Shown piece by piece: positions 1,604 through 20,296 of a DNA stretch of 34,831 nucleotides. How positions within the stretch are numbered: position 1 is the first letter of the stretch; each line of letters opens with the position of its first letter. Origin of the DNA: Desulfurivibrionaceae bacterium (lineage in GTDB: Bacteria; Desulfobacterota; Desulfobulbia; Desulfobulbales; UBA5123); NCBI GenBank assembly GCA_030145325.1, contig JAQYVW010000030.1, positions 1 through 34,831 on the forward strand, written 5' to 3'. Under the pieces are notes generated by a model, which was given only the letters and a program-made list of their open reading frames with translations, had not been told where the DNA came from and made no database searches. Both the position numbers and the translations under genes were made by a program.

Positions 1604-2791
1604 ATGAGGAACTTGTTGTCTAAATTGTCTTCTCCCGGCGTTGCGATTTTTTTAGCGTTGGTTGTTTTCCGGTTGCTGCTGGCGCCGGTTGGTATGGCCA
1701 GCGAGGAAGATTTTTTTGAAGATGGTTGGGGTGATGAGGATTTTTCCGTCCAGGCCTCGGTTGCTAACGGCGGGATGGTCGATCCCCTTGAATCATTGAA
1801 TCGGGTGTTTTTTAACTTCAATGACCGGTTATACTTTTGGGTGTTGAAACCGGTGGCCCAGGGGTATAAGGCTGTTTTTGCTGATGAAGATGTGCGGCTG
1901 TGTTTCAGTAATGCCTTCCATAACCTATCCTCGCCGATAAGAATTGTTAATAATCTTTTGCAAGGAAAAATTATTGGGGCTGGTAGTGAACTGGCTTCAT
2001 TTTTGATTAATTCGACTTTGGGGATTGCCGGGCTGGCTGACCCTGCCCATAAGGAATTCGGTCTCTTGGACAGTGATGAGGATTTTGGCCAGACCTTGGG
2101 CAGCTATGGCGTTGGTAATGGCTTCTATATTTGTTGGCCGTTTTTGGGCCCTTCGTCGTTGCGGGATACGGTTGGAACTGTTGCTGATTCCTTTGCTGAT
2201 CCGCTCTCCTACTGGACTGCTTCGGGGGAAAGTGGTGGCTATGCTCTGCAAGGAGGGAAGCAGGTTAACAAGATTTCCTTGCATATTGGCAAGTATGAGC
2301 GTTTCAAAGATGCTTCCTTTGACCCTTATGTGGCGGTGCGTGATGCTTATGCGCAGCATCGGCATAGTCGAGTTACGGATGAGGTTGATGCTGCCTCGGG
2401 GTATGGAGTCAGTCGGTTAGAAAGACCTGCGGAGGAGATTCCTGCCACCAGTGTTGCCAATGCGCAGCCGGTGCCACAAGTGGTGACGCCGCCGGTTCAG
2501 AAGTCGGTGGAGTTGCCGGTGCCGGCAACAGTTTCCAAAGTGTCTTGGGATGCCATGCAGCCGGGTTTTTTTGTTCTGGTAGGTGTTTATCGTGATCCGT
2601 CAAATATTAAGCAACAGAGGGAGCGCGTCGTCCGAGTTGGCAAGGGGGCTTTGGTGGCCCGTTATCAACGAGCCGATTACTCTTTTTTTGGAGTTGAGGT
2701 TCCTGTCGGTGCAGACTTTGCCAAGGCTAAGCAGATGGAGCAAGACCTGCGCAGGGCTGGGTTCGCGGAAACGATGGTTGTGATGCATTGA
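1604..2791 (+). CDS. mlaA: MlaA (VacJ) outer-membrane lipid removal protein with C-terminal SPOR-like domain
   Basis: This 395-residue protein has a signal peptide (residues 1 to about 32, hydrophobic core AIFLALVVFRLLLAPVGMA), an MlaA domain (about 45-230) with DPLESLNRVFFNFND, LINSTLGIAGLADPA, DFGQTLGSYGVGNG and GPSSLRDTVG, a Pro/Val-rich linker (about 265-315), and an approximately 75-residue C-terminal domain that reads like a SPOR domain (FFVLVGVYRDPSNIKQQ near 323, ending RRAGFAETMVV). MlaA extracts mislocalised phospholipids from the outer leaflet and hands them to MlaC. E. coli MlaA is a shorter lipoprotein. Here no lipobox cysteine follows the signal peptide and there is an added peptidoglycan-binding-type domain. 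GTG at 1601 directly precedes the chosen ATG and is an equally possible start. Confidence 0.9.
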   Translation: MRNLLSKLSSPGVAIFLALVVFRLLLAPVGMASEEDFFEDGWGDEDFSVQASVANGGMVDPLESLNRVFFNFNDRLYFWVLKPVAQGYKAVFADEDVRLCFSNAFHNLSSPIRIVNNLLQGKIIGAGSELASFLINSTLGIAGLADPAHKEFGLLDSDEDFGQTLGSYGVGNGFYICWPFLGPSSLRDTVGTVADSFADPLSYWTASGESGGYALQGGKQVNKISLHIGKYERFKDASFDPYVAVRDAYAQHRHSRVTDEVDAASGYGVSRLERPAEEIPATSVANAQPVPQVVTPPVQKSVELPVPATVSKVSWDAMQPGFFVLVGVYRDPSNIKQQRERVVRVGKGALVARYQRADYSFFGVEVPVGADFAKAKQMEQDLRRAGFAETMVVMH

Positions 2792-2855
2792 TGTTTCTTG
2801 CCTTGGCGCGGCACCGATGGTGTTGGTAGCGGGGTATGTTTTTAAGGAGAAGATT

Positions 2856-4072: not shown

Positions 4073-5359
4073 ATGTTGGAACAGAAGGATTTTATTTCTA
4101 TCTCCACCCTTGAGCTGGTTGAGTGTCTTGCCACCGCCATGGATCTGGTTAGTCCTGCCCTGGCTAATCATCAGCGGCGGGTTGGTTTTATTGCCTTAAG
4201 GCTTGCTGAGCAGATGGAGATGTCCAGAGAGTTGTGTAAAGAGGCGTTGATTGCCGGTCTTTTGCATGACTCAGGCGCTCTTTCCATGTATGACCGAGCC
4301 ATTACCCTTAATTTTGAGCTGGGCCCCACAGGTTCGTTTTCTCCCCATCAACATGCCATTGCTGGCTATCATCTAATTCGTAAGTTCCGGCCATTTGCCG
4401 AAGTTGCCCAGGTTATTCGTTTTCATCATCTGCCCTGGGGTAATGGCGAAGGCGCTTTTGTTAGCGATGAGGCGGTCCCCCTTGGCTCTCATCTCATCCA
4501 TTTGGCCGATCGGATTGATGTTTTGGTCAACGAGAAGAGTAATATCCTTCTTCAGGGGCAGGGGATCGTCGAGACTATTGAGCAGAAGAAGGGAGTGCTT
4601 TTCCATCCGGAATTGGTCAAGGCTTTTGTGGACTTGTCGAAGAAGGAAGCGTTCTGGCTTGATATCGCCAGTGTCTCAATGGGGGCCGGGGTTGCTACTG
4701 AATCAGGTTTTGCCCATGAGAAGCTTGATTGTGATGATTTGCTGGATATGACCGAGCTGTTTGGCCATATTATCGATTTCCGAAGTCGCTTTACGGCCAC
4801 TCATTCAAGTGGCGTTTCTACTTGTGCTGCAAGCCTTGCCCGTTTGGCCAACTTTTCAGAGGCAGAGTGTATGATGATGAAGATCGCCGGTAATCTTCAT
4901 GATCTTGGTAAGCTCGCGGTGCCGGTTGATATCCTTGAAAAACCTGCTGCCCTCAGCAATTCAGAGTTCCTTATTGTTAAGGCGCATACCTATTTCACCT
5001 ACAAGGTGTTGCGCAATTTTCGCGATATGGAGAATATCAGGGAATGGGCCGCCTACCATCATGAACGGTTGGATGGCAAAGGCTACCCGTTTCATTTGCG
5101 TGGTGATGAGTTATCGTTGGGGGCGCGGGTGATGGCTGTCGCCGATGTCTTCACCGCTATTACTGAAGACCGACCGTATCGTCAGGGGATGTCACCAGAA
5201 GAGGCGACCAGGGTTCTTGTTGAGATGGCCAAGAACAGGGCTTTAGATGGTAATGTTGTGCAGCTTTTACTTGATAATTTCAAAGATGTGAACCATCTGC
5301 GGGTTCTGGCGCAAACGGCCAGCCGGGATGATTATCAACTCTTCCGCCAGGGGTTTTGA
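4073..5359 (+). CDS. HD-GYP domain protein, probable cyclic-di-GMP phosphodiesterase
   Basis: The 428-residue protein has two HD-type halves. The N-terminal half (about 20-190) has a His65-Asp66 pair in GLLHDSGALS followed by FHHLPWG, which resembles but departs from the canonical motif. The C-terminal half (about 225-400) has the full HD-GYP signature: HDLGKLAVP from His276, then HHERLDGKGYP at 329-339, then VADVFTAITEDRPYRQG. HD-GYP proteins hydrolyse cyclic-di-GMP. No signal peptide, membrane segment or receiver domain is visible. ATG at 4073 has a GGGGG stretch about 7 bases upstream and is preferred over an upstream in-frame TTG at 4043. It runs convergent with the large gene after it, only 37 bp away. 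Confidence 0.87.
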   Translation: MLEQKDFISISTLELVECLATAMDLVSPALANHQRRVGFIALRLAEQMEMSRELCKEALIAGLLHDSGALSMYDRAITLNFELGPTGSFSPHQHAIAGYHLIRKFRPFAEVAQVIRFHHLPWGNGEGAFVSDEAVPLGSHLIHLADRIDVLVNEKSNILLQGQGIVETIEQKKGVLFHPELVKAFVDLSKKEAFWLDIASVSMGAGVATESGFAHEKLDCDDLLDMTELFGHIIDFRSRFTATHSSGVSTCAASLARLANFSEAECMMMKIAGNLHDLGKLAVPVDILEKPAALSNSEFLIVKAHTYFTYKVLRNFRDMENIREWAAYHHERLDGKGYPFHLRGDELSLGARVMAVADVFTAITEDRPYRQGMSPEEATRVLVEMAKNRALDGNVVQLLLDNFKDVNHLRVLAQTASRDDYQLFRQGF

Positions 5360-16604: not shown

Positions 16605-16886
16605 ATGGATGCTTTCTCTGCAATAGTCAAGGGTTCCGGGAAAGGGAGTAAGAACTGTTGGGAATTTCACAACTGCGGCTCACAAAAGGAAGAATGCGCA
16701 GCGTATCCCAATGCTGGCAGGAGTTGTGCCTTCATGGCTGGTACCGTTGGCGATTGCTTTGCCGTCAGCATTGATGAGAAGCAGCAGAAATGTCAGGCTT
16801 GCCCCTTTTATAACAGTGAGCATTTTGACAATCCGCAAGCGTTCGCCCAAAAATATGGTTGGCGAATTTCAGATGATCTCTTCTGA
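16605..16886 (+). CDS. CW-motif cysteine-rich small protein
   Basis: This 93-residue soluble protein has seven cysteines (18, 24, 31, 41, 51, 63, 66). It opens with NCWEFHNCG and continues with C..YP..G..C, a GT.GDC segment and CQACPFY. The CWEF..C start and the C..CPFY end are characteristic of small 'CW' proteins common in sulfate-reducing and metal-reducing bacteria, sometimes fused to signalling or chemotaxis proteins. The cysteines probably bind a metal or an Fe-S cluster, but no activity is established. GAAGG lies about 8 bases before the ATG. It ends about 58 bp before the B12 promoter and is not obviously part of that region. Confidence 0.8.
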   Translation: MDAFSAIVKGSGKGSKNCWEFHNCGSQKEECAAYPNAGRSCAFMAGTVGDCFAVSIDEKQQKCQACPFYNSEHFDNPQAFAQKYGWRISDDLF

Positions 16887-16943: not shown

Positions 16944-16972
16944 TTGACCCTTCATTCATCGTCCGTTACATT
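16944..16972 (+). promoter_or_regulatory. sigma-70 promoter of cobalamin riboswitch 1
   Basis: TTGACC (16944-16949), a 17-bp spacer and TACATT (16967-16972) place a start site near 16979, just where the first cobalamin riboswitch begins. Confidence 0.55.
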
Positions 16973-16978
16973 GGCAAT

Positions 16979-17143
16979 CAGTTTCAGGCGCTCTTAACCG
17001 AGCTTAATAGGGAACTCCGTGTGAATCGGAGACGGGCCCGCCGCTGTGACCGGGGACAAATTCCGCACTATGCCACTGTCTTGATCAAGATGGGAAGGCG
17101 CGGAAGGAGGATGAGCCGGGAGTCAGAATACCTGCCTGCAGAC
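16979..17143 (+). promoter_or_regulatory. cobalamin riboswitch 1
   Basis: The conserved cobalamin aptamer pieces occur in order: CAGGCGC near the 5' end, AGGGAACTCCGTGTGAATC, ACGGGCCCGCCGCTGTGACC, TGCCACTGTC, TGGGAAGGCGCGGAAGGAGG, ATGAGCCGGGAGTCAG and the B12-box end ACCTGCC at 17130-17136. It binds a B12 coenzyme and normally represses downstream genes. An intrinsic terminator follows about 65 bp later, so control is probably transcriptional. A few positions differ from consensus (GTGACC for GTAACC, AGAATACC for AGGAGACC). Confidence 0.92.
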
Positions 17144-17207
17144 ATTGCGTGACACTTTTCGAGGATCGAAATCGTGTTGCCGGATCTTGCGGAGATAGAT
17201 GGGACAT

Positions 17208-17240
17208 CCCGGATCGATTATTATCGGTCCGGGTTTTTTT
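17208..17240 (+). terminator. intrinsic terminator of riboswitch 1
   Basis: An 11-bp stem (17208-17218 with 17223-17233, one G-T pair) and a TATT loop are followed by seven T residues. It is preceded by GGGACATCC, a segment also found before the terminator of riboswitch 2. Confidence 0.85.
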
Positions 17241-17293
17241 ATGCCCTCATTTTGGCGGCAGCCCCGGACCCGAACTCTACAGGGAGAACGGTT

Positions 17294-17389
17294 ATGGCCC
17301 CATGTGAAGCAAGTTTGTGCAAGAGTACTTTTTTTCTCATCAAGGACTGGGATTCCTTTCAGGTAACCATGCGTTTTTTTCTGCGCTGA
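17294..17389 (+). CDS. possible 31-residue small ORF between the tandem riboswitches
   Basis: This short ORF begins with ATG six bases after AGGGAGA, a very good Shine-Dalgarno, and runs 31 codons to TGA. The peptide begins MAPCEASLCKSTFF and ends MRFFLR, with two cysteines and no clear membrane segment; I recognise no family. It lies 54 bp after the terminator of riboswitch 1 and before the promoter of riboswitch 2, so it is the only candidate gene under control of riboswitch 1. It could be a real small protein, a remnant of a lost B12-regulated gene, or a chance ORF. Confidence 0.3.
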   Translation: MAPCEASLCKSTFFLIKDWDSFQVTMRFFLR

Positions 17390-17439
17390 AAAGCCGTTGG
17401 GGAGAGGTCTGTCAGGATGGTTGTTTCTTGACAATCGTC

Positions 17440-17468
17440 TTGACTTTCCGACCCTTTTTCAGTATTGA
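17440..17468 (+). promoter_or_regulatory. sigma-70 promoter of cobalamin riboswitch 2
   Basis: TTGACT (17440-17445), a 17-bp spacer and TATTGA (17463-17468) lie immediately before the 5' strand of riboswitch 2 (17473). The position mirrors the promoter-to-aptamer distance of riboswitch 1. Confidence 0.5.
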
Positions 17469-17471
17469 GAA

Positions 17472-17785
17472 GATCTTCAGGTGCTCGTGAAAGAGCAACA
17501 GGAAATCTTTAAAAAATTAGCAGTTTTGTTCGAGAACAAGGCGTGGTGAAAAATAAAAAGCGGAGCATATCAGTGTATATGTGAGCATTTTTCTTTTTTG
17601 CCGCCGCGCATTAATCGGGCTAAATGGCAATTTTTTATGGTTTCCAAGAGGGAACTCCGTGTAACTCGGAGACGGGCCCACCGCTGTAACCGGTAACGAG
17701 TTTCGCCACATGCCACTGTCTTAACGAGATGGGAAGGCGCGAAACAAGGATTGAGCCGGGAGTCAGAAGACCTGCCTGAAGATGA
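17472..17785 (+). promoter_or_regulatory. cobalamin riboswitch 2, interrupted by about 145 extra nt
   Basis: The 3' core is standard: AGAGGGAACTCCGTGTAACT, ACGGGCCCACCGCTGTAACC, TGCCACTGTC, TGGGAAGGCGCG and AGTCAGAAGACCTGCC. The 5' strand CTTCAGGTGCTCGTGAAAGAGC lies far upstream, at about 17475-17496, and 17473-17481 pairs perfectly with 17775-17783 to form P1. In riboswitch 3 the AGGTGC-to-GGGAA distance is about 27 nt; here it is about 170 nt. The excess (about 17506-17645) is AT-rich and holds a catat/atatg inverted repeat near 17565-17582. The aptamer may still fold with the insert looped out. Confidence 0.8.
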
Positions 17786-17849
17786 CATACGCATTGCCTT
17801 CGTGGACGGAAGGCTTTGCGAACTGATTTCGTGGATAAAAAAGGGACAT

Positions 17850-17887
17850 CCTCGAATCGATTTTATATCGGTTCGGGGATTTTTTTA
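17850..17887 (+). terminator. intrinsic terminator of riboswitch 2
   Basis: A 12-bp stem (17850-17861 with 17867-17878, two G-T pairs) and a 5-nt loop are followed by a T-rich run to 17887. Stem sequence and the preceding GGGACATCC closely match the terminator of riboswitch 1, which indicates that the two regulatory units arose by duplication. Confidence 0.82.
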
Positions 17888-17998: not shown

Positions 17999-18967
17999 AT
18001 GGATTTCTTAACCATCATCCCCCAGCTTTGGCATGGACTGGGTTGGCCCTTGTTGCGGCTGGTCTTTTTCGTCTCCTTAGGCTTGATGGTCGGTAACTTC
18101 ATTGAGGCCCTTAACTGGACGCGGGGGGCAGCTCGGCTGGCCACCCCGTTGATTCGGCTTGGCAACCTCTCCGATACTGCCGGGGCTAGTTTTTCCATGG
18201 CCTTTTTCTCTGGGGTGGCTGCTAACACCATGTTGGCCGAGGCGTATGATCAGGGCAAGCTCAATAAGAAAGAACTGGTGCTGGCCAATCTCTTCAACAC
18301 CCTCCCCATCTACTTTCTGCATCTGCCCACGGTCTTCTTTCTCACTGCGCCGTTGATCAAGGGGGCAGCCTTCATCTACGTGGGGCTCACCTTGCTGGCC
18401 GCCGTGCTGCGCACCGTCTGTATTCTGATCTTGGGGAGGTTTTTGCTGCCAACGCGGGCCACCGGCAAGGTAGCTGATCTGCTCACCGACCGAAAGCGGC
18501 TTACTTGGCGCGAGGCATTGACCAAGGCCTGGCTGCGGTTCAGAAAACGGATCAACAAAATCATTGTTTATACGGTGCCCATTTATACCCTGGTTTTTTT
18601 AATGAACCGCTGGGGCTTTTTTAACTGGCTTGAGCATCTGCTCACCAACCATCTCACCGTTCTTGCTTGGCTGGATCCCCGCAGTTTCGGAATTATCGTT
18701 GCCCATGTGGCTGCGGAATTCTCTGCCGGTTTGGCTGTGGCCGGGGCCTTGATCCAAGGCGGTACTCTGGACTATCGGCAGGTGGTCTTAGCGCTGTTGG
18801 TGGGCAACGTGCTGGCGGCGCCAGCGCGGATTTTTCGTCATCAGTTTCCCTACTACGCAGGGATCTTTACCCCTAAATTGGCCATGGAAATGATCTTCTA
18901 TAGTCAGACTTTCCGGGTGGGGAGCATTATTGTGGTGGGGCTGGGGTATTACTGGCTTTCAGCTTAA
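17999..18967 (+). CDS. B12-regulated Gate (nucleoside-recognition) domain membrane protein
   Basis: This 322-residue protein has about eight hydrophobic segments and belongs to the Gate or 'nucleoside recognition' family seen in SpoVM-type and transporter proteins. Two halves show a shared pattern: DQGKLNKKELVLANLFNTLP (near residues 84-103) and QGGTLDYRQVVLALLVGNVL (near 254-273), each with the same helix-loop arrangement. The ligand is not known from sequence. Riboswitch 2 with its terminator lies directly upstream (about 110 bp), so the gene should be turned off when cobalamin is plentiful. A part in cobalt, corrinoid or precursor uptake is a reasonable inference. AAGTAAGG lies just before the ATG. 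Confidence 0.8.
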   Translation: MDFLTIIPQLWHGLGWPLLRLVFFVSLGLMVGNFIEALNWTRGAARLATPLIRLGNLSDTAGASFSMAFFSGVAANTMLAEAYDQGKLNKKELVLANLFNTLPIYFLHLPTVFFLTAPLIKGAAFIYVGLTLLAAVLRTVCILILGRFLLPTRATGKVADLLTDRKRLTWREALTKAWLRFRKRINKIIVYTVPIYTLVFLMNRWGFFNWLEHLLTNHLTVLAWLDPRSFGIIVAHVAAEFSAGLAVAGALIQGGTLDYRQVVLALLVGNVLAAPARIFRHQFPYYAGIFTPKLAMEMIFYSQTFRVGSIIVVGLGYYWLSA

Positions 18968-19009
18968 GAGTAAGGCGACCGGAAGGTCGTAAGCACAATT
19001 TAAGGAAAG

Positions 19010-19176
19010 AACCTCCAGGTGCCCGCAAGGGCTTAAAAGGGAATCCCGTGCAAATCGGGAACGGTCCCGCCACTGTAACCGGCAACGAATTTCGCACTTA
19101 GCCACTGTTCACTTTCAACGAACGGGAAGGCGCGGAAGGAGGATGAACCGGAAGTCAGGAGACCTGCCTGGGGGTT
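19010..19176 (+). promoter_or_regulatory. cobalamin riboswitch 3, before cbiK
   Basis: A textbook cobalamin aptamer: CCAGGTGCCCGCAAGGGC, AAAAGGGAATCCCGTGCAAA, ACGGTCCCGCCACTGTAACC, AGCCACTGTTC, GGGAAGGCGCGGAAGGAGG and AGTCAGGAGACCTGCC. P1 is formed by 19010-19019 with 19167-19176. No terminator follows. Instead CTCCTC at 19239-19244 can pair with GAGGAG at 19313-19318, the Shine-Dalgarno of cbiK, which suggests translational control. It begins only 42 bp after the Gate protein stop and no separate promoter is evident, so it probably acts inside a longer transcript. Confidence 0.95.
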
Positions 19177-19324
19177 AAGTCGAAGCAATCCTTCGTGGAA
19201 AAGGATGCGGCTGTTGCAGTGCGGGCGGTATGCAATAACTCCTCCCTAGCGGCAATGACGTATGCCGATATCGTGCAAGGTTGTCTTCAAAATTTTGGCA
19301 TCGTCAATGAAAGAGGAGAAAGGT

Positions 19325-20296
19325 ATGCAACTCGTGAATGTAAAACCGACCCGCAGGCAAGTTATTCTTGCCGTTATGTTGTCTCTTACCATCCTGGCTG
19401 TGGCTGGCAACGGGTGGGGGATGACCAGAACCCTGAAAAAAGAACCGGCCATTGTTCTCGCCGCTTTTGGCACCACCACCAAGGCGCGGGTGACCTATGA
19501 TTTTTTTGATGCCCAGCTCCGCGAGGAGTTGCCGGCAAAGTATCGTAACCTCAAGATCGCCTGGGCCTTCACCTCGGAGATCGTCCGGGAGCGTGCCAAT
19601 GCTAAATTTATCAAGGCGGGTGTTGAGCAACGTTACCTGAGCCTGCCGCAGGTGTTGGCCAACCTTGAAAACGAGGGTTACCGTAAAGTGGCGATCCAGC
19701 CCCTGCATATCTTCCCCGGCCAGGAGTTCGAGGAAATGGAGCGGGTGATCCAGGCCTTTCGGATTATTGATCTGCGGATCGAGTATGGCGGCACCCTGTT
19801 GCACGATTGGTCGTGGCTCTTTGAAGCAGTCGGGGTGCTTGAAAAGGAATTTCTTGCCCCCAGTGAGGGGATGAATGTTCTCGTCGCTCACGGCTCTCCG
19901 AAAACCTTTGTCGGTTCCAATGCCACCTACCTCGGGCTTGATCGTTACCTGAGTCGGAAGTACGCCAACGTGGTGGCGGGAGGTGTCGATGGTGTTCTCA
20001 CTCGCGAGCAGGCCCTGGCGGCGGTGAAGGCATCGCCCACTAAACGGGCACGGTTGATTCCCTTCATGTACGTGGCTGGTGATCATATCATGAATGATAT
20101 CATGGGTGCAGAGCCTGACAAGAATGGCGAACTCTCTTGGGCCTTGGAGCTGAAAAAGGCCGGGGTCAGGGTGGATACCGTTTTTACCGACTACAAAGGG
20201 GAACGCTGTTTCAAGGGGCTTGGCTTCTATAAAGAGATCAACAGTCGCTACATTAAGCAGCTTGAGGAAAGTCTTAAGCGCTTGGAAGAACGATAA
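19325..20296 (+). CDS. cbiK: CbiK, sirohydrochlorin cobaltochelatase, periplasmic type
   Basis: This 323-residue protein inserts Co2+ (or Fe2+) into sirohydrochlorin. After an N-terminal signal peptide (core VILAVMLSLTILAVAG, residues about 14-29) comes the CbiK chelatase fold: VLAAFGTTTKAR, the metal-site His128 in QPLHIFPGQEFEEM, and His189 in VAHGSP. The 61-residue spacing fits the two metal-ligand histidines of the family. Most CbiK proteins are cytoplasmic; a signal-bearing form, CbiKP, is known in Desulfovibrio vulgaris. ATG at 19325 is chosen because AGAGGAGAAAGG lies just upstream and a signal peptide follows. It is preceded by riboswitch 3 and followed by uptake genes, which points to a role in metal-porphyrin or cobalt handling as much as in synthesis. 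Confidence 0.92.
   Translation: MQLVNVKPTRRQVILAVMLSLTILAVAGNGWGMTRTLKKEPAIVLAAFGTTTKARVTYDFFDAQLREELPAKYRNLKIAWAFTSEIVRERANAKFIKAGVEQRYLSLPQVLANLENEGYRKVAIQPLHIFPGQEFEEMERVIQAFRIIDLRIEYGGTLLHDWSWLFEAVGVLEKEFLAPSEGMNVLVAHGSPKTFVGSNATYLGLDRYLSRKYANVVAGGVDGVLTREQALAAVKASPTKRARLIPFMYVAGDHIMNDIMGAEPDKNGELSWALELKKAGVRVDTVFTDYKGERCFKGLGFYKEINSRYIKQLEESLKRLEER

Follow-up and report, generated by a model that had tools for sequence, protein, structure and literature searches.

A cobalamin riboswitch ahead of a conserved 31-codon gene in Desulfobulbales

Layout of the riboswitch locus

We analyzed a whole stretch of 34,831 nt from a Desulfurivibrionaceae bacterium (contig JAQYVW010000030.1, positions 1 to 34,831; hereafter 'the window'), in which three cobalamin riboswitches, RS1, RS2 and RS3, lie on the forward strand (Table 1). 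All three scored far over the gathering threshold of the RF00174 covariance model, which is 31.5 bits. A preliminary description of the sequence had assigned to the first unit a promoter, an aptamer and a terminator of its own; each of these was located, the promoter as a promoter-like site. It had also seen only a 31-codon ORF between RS1 and the next promoter and riboswitch, and this reading held, as no conventional gene was found in the window between 17240 and 17620. The next gene begins 610 nt past the ORF, behind another riboswitch; the peptide gene, a cbtX-like gene and cbiK each stand behind a B12 riboswitch of their own. Upstream of RS1 there is a 93-aa cysteine-rich ORF (16605–16886), which has no Pfam match and is kept, with its NCWEFNNCG... 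motif, in two sister species, G003 and G002.

Table 1. Positions of the features in the window
Feature	Position	Strand	Score or basis
Promoter-like site, unit 1 (TTGACC-17-TACATT)	16944–16972	+	Sequence; putative function
Cobalamin riboswitch aptamer RS1 (RF00174)	16969–17153	+	117.3 bits
Candidate antiterminator CCGGATC, complementary to GGTCCGG at 17226–17232 (3′ arm of terminator)	17180–17186	+	Putative, from sequence
RS1 intrinsic terminator (11-bp stem 17208–17233, then TTTTTTT)	17208–17240	+	Sequence
Shine–Dalgarno GGGAG, 7 nt before ATG	17282–17286	+	SD-like core in 116/118 family members
31-codon micropeptide gene, ATG 17294 to TGA 17389; peptide MAPCEASLCKSTFFLIKDWDSFQVTMRFFLR	17294–17389	+	Family conservation
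Promoter-like site, unit 2 (TTGACT-17-TATTGA)	17440–17468	+	Putative function
Cobalamin riboswitch aptamer RS2 (RF00174)	17621–17793	+	98.8 bits; Rfam-matched extent
RS2 intrinsic terminator	17848–17887	+	Sequence
322-aa protein under RS2, candidate CbtX-type cobalt transporter	17999–18967	+	Context; membrane nature judged from sequence
Cobalamin riboswitch RS3 (RF00174), precedes cbiK	19000–19185	+	132.1 bits
cbiK, cobaltochelatase, first gene of RS3-controlled cobalt/B12 operon	19262–20296	+	Sequence

The 322-aa protein has no Pfam or NCBIfam family match; its homologues occur in 192 of 258 genomes of the order Desulfobulbales. By position only, as the neighbor of cbiK, it fits a candidate CbtX. 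Behind cbiK, the RS3 operon carries genes of B12 transport and synthesis. In those parts of the account of the delta-proteobacterial B12 regulon that are drawn on here (PMC545781), a CbtX cobalt transporter is predicted, cbtX adjoins and clusters with cbiK, and B12 elements precede cbiK, btuCDF and their neighbors; in Desulfotalea there is one B12 element, ahead of cbiK-cbiL. The window resembles this regulon in having B12 elements ahead of cbiK and a cbtX-type gene clustered with it; the same parts of the account do not mention a micropeptide.

The promoter-like site of unit 2 is kept in G003 in both its sequences and its spacing, and that of unit 1 reads TTGACT in G003 and G002, with a weaker −10 element (TAGGAT) and unchanged spacing. 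RS2 of the window, which has the lowest Rfam score of the three riboswitches, carries an insertion of ∼140 nt (about 17500–17645) in its 5′ part in comparison with G003; the insertion may have altered RS2 function.

Regions with several AdoCbl riboswitches, each independent and with a terminator of its own, are known from Desulfobacca acetoxidans and are covered in a review of tandem riboswitches (PMC9481103). Here, unlike in the reviewed cases, every riboswitch has its own gene. As the micropeptide ORF and the promoter-like site of unit 2 intervene between RS1 and RS2, these two do not make a two-aptamer gate on one mRNA, and we ruled out a tandem riboswitch of that kind.

The pair RS1/RS2 had been thought to result from duplication, a claim that was not borne out: RS1 shares 65% identity with RS2 and 66% with RS3, and duplication of RS1 into RS2 found no support, as neither the tree nor the identities gave a close sister relation. 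The observation behind the claim was partly right. The GGGACATCC segment and the terminator sequences are shared by units 1 and 2; however, they recur, in varied form, in the units of distant genera as well (e.g. G219), so that sharing alone is no proof of local duplication.

In G003, which belongs to the same genus and whose RS2-controlled protein is 74% identical to that of the window, the layout is the same: RS1, terminator, ORF, second promoter-like site, RS2 and gene. The ORF has 31 codons, with start and stop as in the window (peptide MASRETTHCKCTLFLIRDWDSFQLTMRCFLR). The preliminary description had proposed comparing the locus in related species, where an intact gene might lie between the riboswitches or the ORF might be missing from the same tandem layout. 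This comparison did not refute the proposal: G003 keeps both the layout and the ORF, and G002, where the ORF is absent, has only a single riboswitch at the locus (L016, around 2550–2800, minus strand). This riboswitch is chimeric: its 5′ part resembles RS1 and its 3′ part RS2, as if the two riboswitches had recombined in G002 and the ORF between them had been lost. Since the two riboswitch copies of G003 have in common an exact repeat of 45 nt, the state of G002 may also be a collapse in short-read assembly.

A conserved peptide family

A search with the single 31-residue sequence gave matches in many families of Desulfobulbales. A family profile built from 36 members and searched in 258 genomes of the order matched in 115 of them, including genomes of Desulfobulbaceae, Desulfocapsa, Desulfurivibrio and Candidatus Electrothrix. 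With the same ORF in a sister species and profile matches on this scale, the ORF is far beyond chance.

We extracted 118 loci. The start position relative to the motif is constant in nearly all of them; ATG opens the frame in 115 members, and all but two carry an SD-like core. The strongest positions are E5, K10, D18, W19, D20, F/Y22, Q23 and R27, the family core being M-x3-E-x4-K-x7-D-W-D-x-[FY]-Q-x3-R. Start, ribosome-binding site and frame are thus fixed in independent lineages, as is characteristic of a functional small protein family. No relatives of the peptide were found among the known families in Pfam, NCBIfam, PHROGs and PDB; actin-like matches in PDB were weak (best E 0.09) and were taken as chance. 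Three weak partial matches, and nothing more, came from a sample of 395 genomes of the phylum outside the order. Judged by its sequence, the gene belongs to a new, undescribed micropeptide family. AlphaFold (60 sequences) predicts one helix at residues 3–30, with mean pLDDT 82.5 and pTM 0.33, a prediction that says little for a peptide of 31 residues. As more than half of the order and the sister species G002 lack the family, the peptide is dispensable.

The link to the riboswitch is close: an RF00174 riboswitch was present upstream, on the same strand, in 87 of 90 locus scans, a number in which three loci are counted twice. Of the three other scans, one gave 30.4 bits, under the cut-off of 31.5, and two were truncated by contig ends.

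The codon-level conservation of the peptide, which the preliminary description had proposed to look for, was found. For the 24-codon core pooled over 32 near-relative pairs, pS was 0.54, pN 0.085 and dN/dS 0.094, with a bias to low dN/dS as most of the pairs were picked via protein similarity; the differences at codon positions 1, 2 and 3 numbered 93, 57 and 261. The low dN/dS together with the excess of third-position differences indicates that the peptide, not the RNA alone, is under selection. The pair of the window and G003, which is orthologous also by position, has a pN/pS of 0.31, the third highest among the 32 pairs; selection support in the window's own genus therefore appears weaker than in most others.

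One could speculate, from this ratio and from the apparent loss of the ORF by recombination in G002, that a B12-regulated gene has been lost, leaving this ORF as a remnant, and that in this genus the unit is in decay. We consider such a history very unlikely: length, start and stop are identical in the window and G003, constraint is strong in most lineages, and most homologues elsewhere are about as long, which means that no longer gene has been lost.

Genomic contexts of the peptide gene

In 28 loci, from genera g27, g28 and g41, the gene stands alone: it encodes a peptide of 30–38 residues and is followed by a convergent gene (FeoB in 17 cases, another gene in 10, and one other). A folding scan for hairpins 3′ of stop codons detected a strong one just behind the peptide in most of these loci. 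The predicted transcripts of stand-alone units, from riboswitch to terminator, have the length of an sRNA, which suits the idea that a small regulatory RNA is the conserved product and the ORF is incidental. We give this idea hardly any chance, as substitutions fall mostly at third codon positions, the frame is kept everywhere, and sequence conservation between genera does not extend 3′ of the ORF.

Two Patescibacteria (G637 and G638, genomes of 0.8 and 0.9 Mb, one of them Candidatus Campbellbacteria) encode a 27-residue version, MEQTFCKMTLFLIKDWDSFQTAMRTCL and MEQTFCKITIFLITDWDSFQKAMRKCL (L124 and L127, near position 4998). Both copies lie on AT-rich contigs in one and the same housekeeping neighborhood, flanked by a HIT-family gene and pgk/tpi; no riboswitch was found at either locus. 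The pair shows purifying selection (pS 0.92, pN 0.09, pN/pS 0.10), and a full match occurs in only 2 of 397 genomes of the order to which these Patescibacteria belong. One transfer from a Desulfobulbales, followed by retention, is the likeliest origin; the direction is suggested by how widely the family occurs in Desulfobulbales. A peptide that spreads and is retained alone in this way argues for a function in trans.

At the head of operons, in another 28 loci, a gene for a BtuB-related TonB receptor or a cbtX-like gene lies directly behind the peptide, and by a simple test stop and start overlap or abut in 20 of the 28. Such junctions suit translational coupling. The ORF could then be a cis-acting leader whose translation loads ribosomes onto the next gene by termination-reinitiation at ATGA overlaps, the peptide itself being inert; a B12-riboswitch-controlled uORF that works in this mode is known, uPPE2 of Mycobacterium tuberculosis (PMC11260477). 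We nevertheless hold a leader function to be quite unlikely. A regulated gene does not accompany every copy, since in the 28 stand-alone loci the ORF is followed by a convergent gene and, mostly, by a strong hairpin; the gene that follows in the window is far away and has a riboswitch of its own; amino-acid conservation far exceeds the need of coupling; and the two Patescibacteria retain the peptide with neither riboswitch nor downstream partner.

In G219 and G094 the gene order is peptide, cbtX-like gene, cbiK; a single riboswitch heads all three genes in G219, whereas in the window there are three riboswitches, one for each. Furthermore, in six genomes (G252, G254–G257 and G158; L163–L168) the peptide is fused in frame to the N terminus of a CbiK that has a signal sequence. 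The two groups of fusions carry different CbiK subtypes, which suggests two independent fusion events.

These arrangements, and the B12 riboswitch ahead of each of the three genes in the window, would fit a peptide that is a dedicated partner of CbiK or CbtX and aids cobalt insertion or uptake at low B12, the fusions being its one-chain version. This is a narrower form of the explanation we prefer, and as such we think it unlikely. No CbiK was detectable in 22 of the 115 peptide-bearing genomes, including G245 and G247, which are 98–100% complete, and the cbtX-like gene is also missing in several of the peptide-bearing genomes without CbiK. CbiK is absent at the same rate in the whole order (50 of 258 genomes). 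In the fusions, moreover, the peptide precedes the signal sequence and so would be separated from the enzyme by the membrane. The same 22 genomes rule out CbiK as an obligatory partner and the peptide as a CbiK accessory domain, one that occurs only together with CbiK.

In other loci unrelated genes lie some way downstream of the peptide. In five genomes (G130–G133 and G139; loci L226, L170, L233, L236 and L209) the next same-strand gene, 400–900 nt behind the peptide, is nrdJ, encoding a B12-dependent ribonucleotide reductase, confirmed by NCBIfam for one of them. As a partner this enzyme was unsupported, being present in peptide-bearing and peptide-free genomes alike; some peptide-bearing genomes have only remote matches to ribonucleotide reductase, and those in the two Patescibacteria are all weak.

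Proposed role and related systems

We think it probable that RS1 switches a small-protein gene and that its product is a new helical micropeptide of Desulfobulbales, probably a protein-binder that acts in trans and adjusts the uptake or use of corrinoids and cobalt. At high adenosylcobalamin, transcription would stop at the RS1 terminator. At low B12, polymerase would read through and the 31-residue peptide would be translated; the CCGGATC motif behind the aptamer could pair with GGTCCGG in the 3′ arm of the terminator and so act as an antiterminator. The predicted helix would then probably bind a protein partner, tuning corrinoid or cobalt uptake or use. Riboswitch, terminator, gene, conservation, purifying selection and stand-alone copies are computational results; OFF-type AdoCbl control, translation in the cell and action in trans we infer from them. 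A trans-acting, protein-binding microprotein is suggested because the conserved helix belongs to no known family, is alone in many transcripts and is free of a riboswitch in two genomes.

The preliminary description had left a choice between a lost B12-regulated gene, a B12-controlled micropeptide and a leader RNA. The micropeptide is strongly favored by conservation, dN/dS, the fixed start with its SD sequence, stand-alone copies and CbiK fusions; on the sequence data the peptide is probably an unrecognized protein produced at B12 shortage. A role as leader only is disfavored, as many units stop right after the peptide and the two Patescibacterial copies have no riboswitch. Loss of a gene in deep ancestry is possible, given that a btuB-like or cbtX-like gene immediately follows the peptide in relatives; it is superfluous as an explanation, because the riboswitch already has a gene.

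In the openly accessible literature that we searched, the only short ORFs reported under B12 riboswitches were the cis-acting uPPE2 and uMetE of M. tuberculosis (PMC11260477). The present family resembles them in having a short ORF directly under a cobalamin riboswitch and, in part of its members, an ATGA overlap. While uPPE2 controls its downstream gene in cis and is only partially conserved, the peptide described here is conserved across the order, in many loci has no gene behind it, and is found in two genomes without a riboswitch.

The inactivating factor IF17, product of gifB, binds glutamine synthetase, an enzyme of the same metabolism. Small inhibitor proteins of this kind are under a glutamine riboswitch in cyanobacteria (PMC6316151, PMC7760959). 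The likeness, a metabolite riboswitch over a small trans-acting protein, which is demonstrated there and proposed here, is one of mode of action; ligand, protein size (IF17 is larger) and the known target of IF17 set the two systems apart.

A wider proposal is possible, though we would rather bet against it: the peptides may form a new class of B12-starvation microproteins, single helices of ∼30 residues under a dedicated riboswitch that bind and re-tune a core protein shared by Desulfobulbales and Patescibacteria; the Patescibacteria would have acquired the gene by capture and dropped its B12 control.

An apparently geneless riboswitch thus gains a gene, and an unannotated family below the usual annotation length is exposed. 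It is unusual for a 30-residue peptide to be the entire output of a riboswitch, and with the stand-alone copies the role of a microprotein in B12 shortage can be studied in a clean system.
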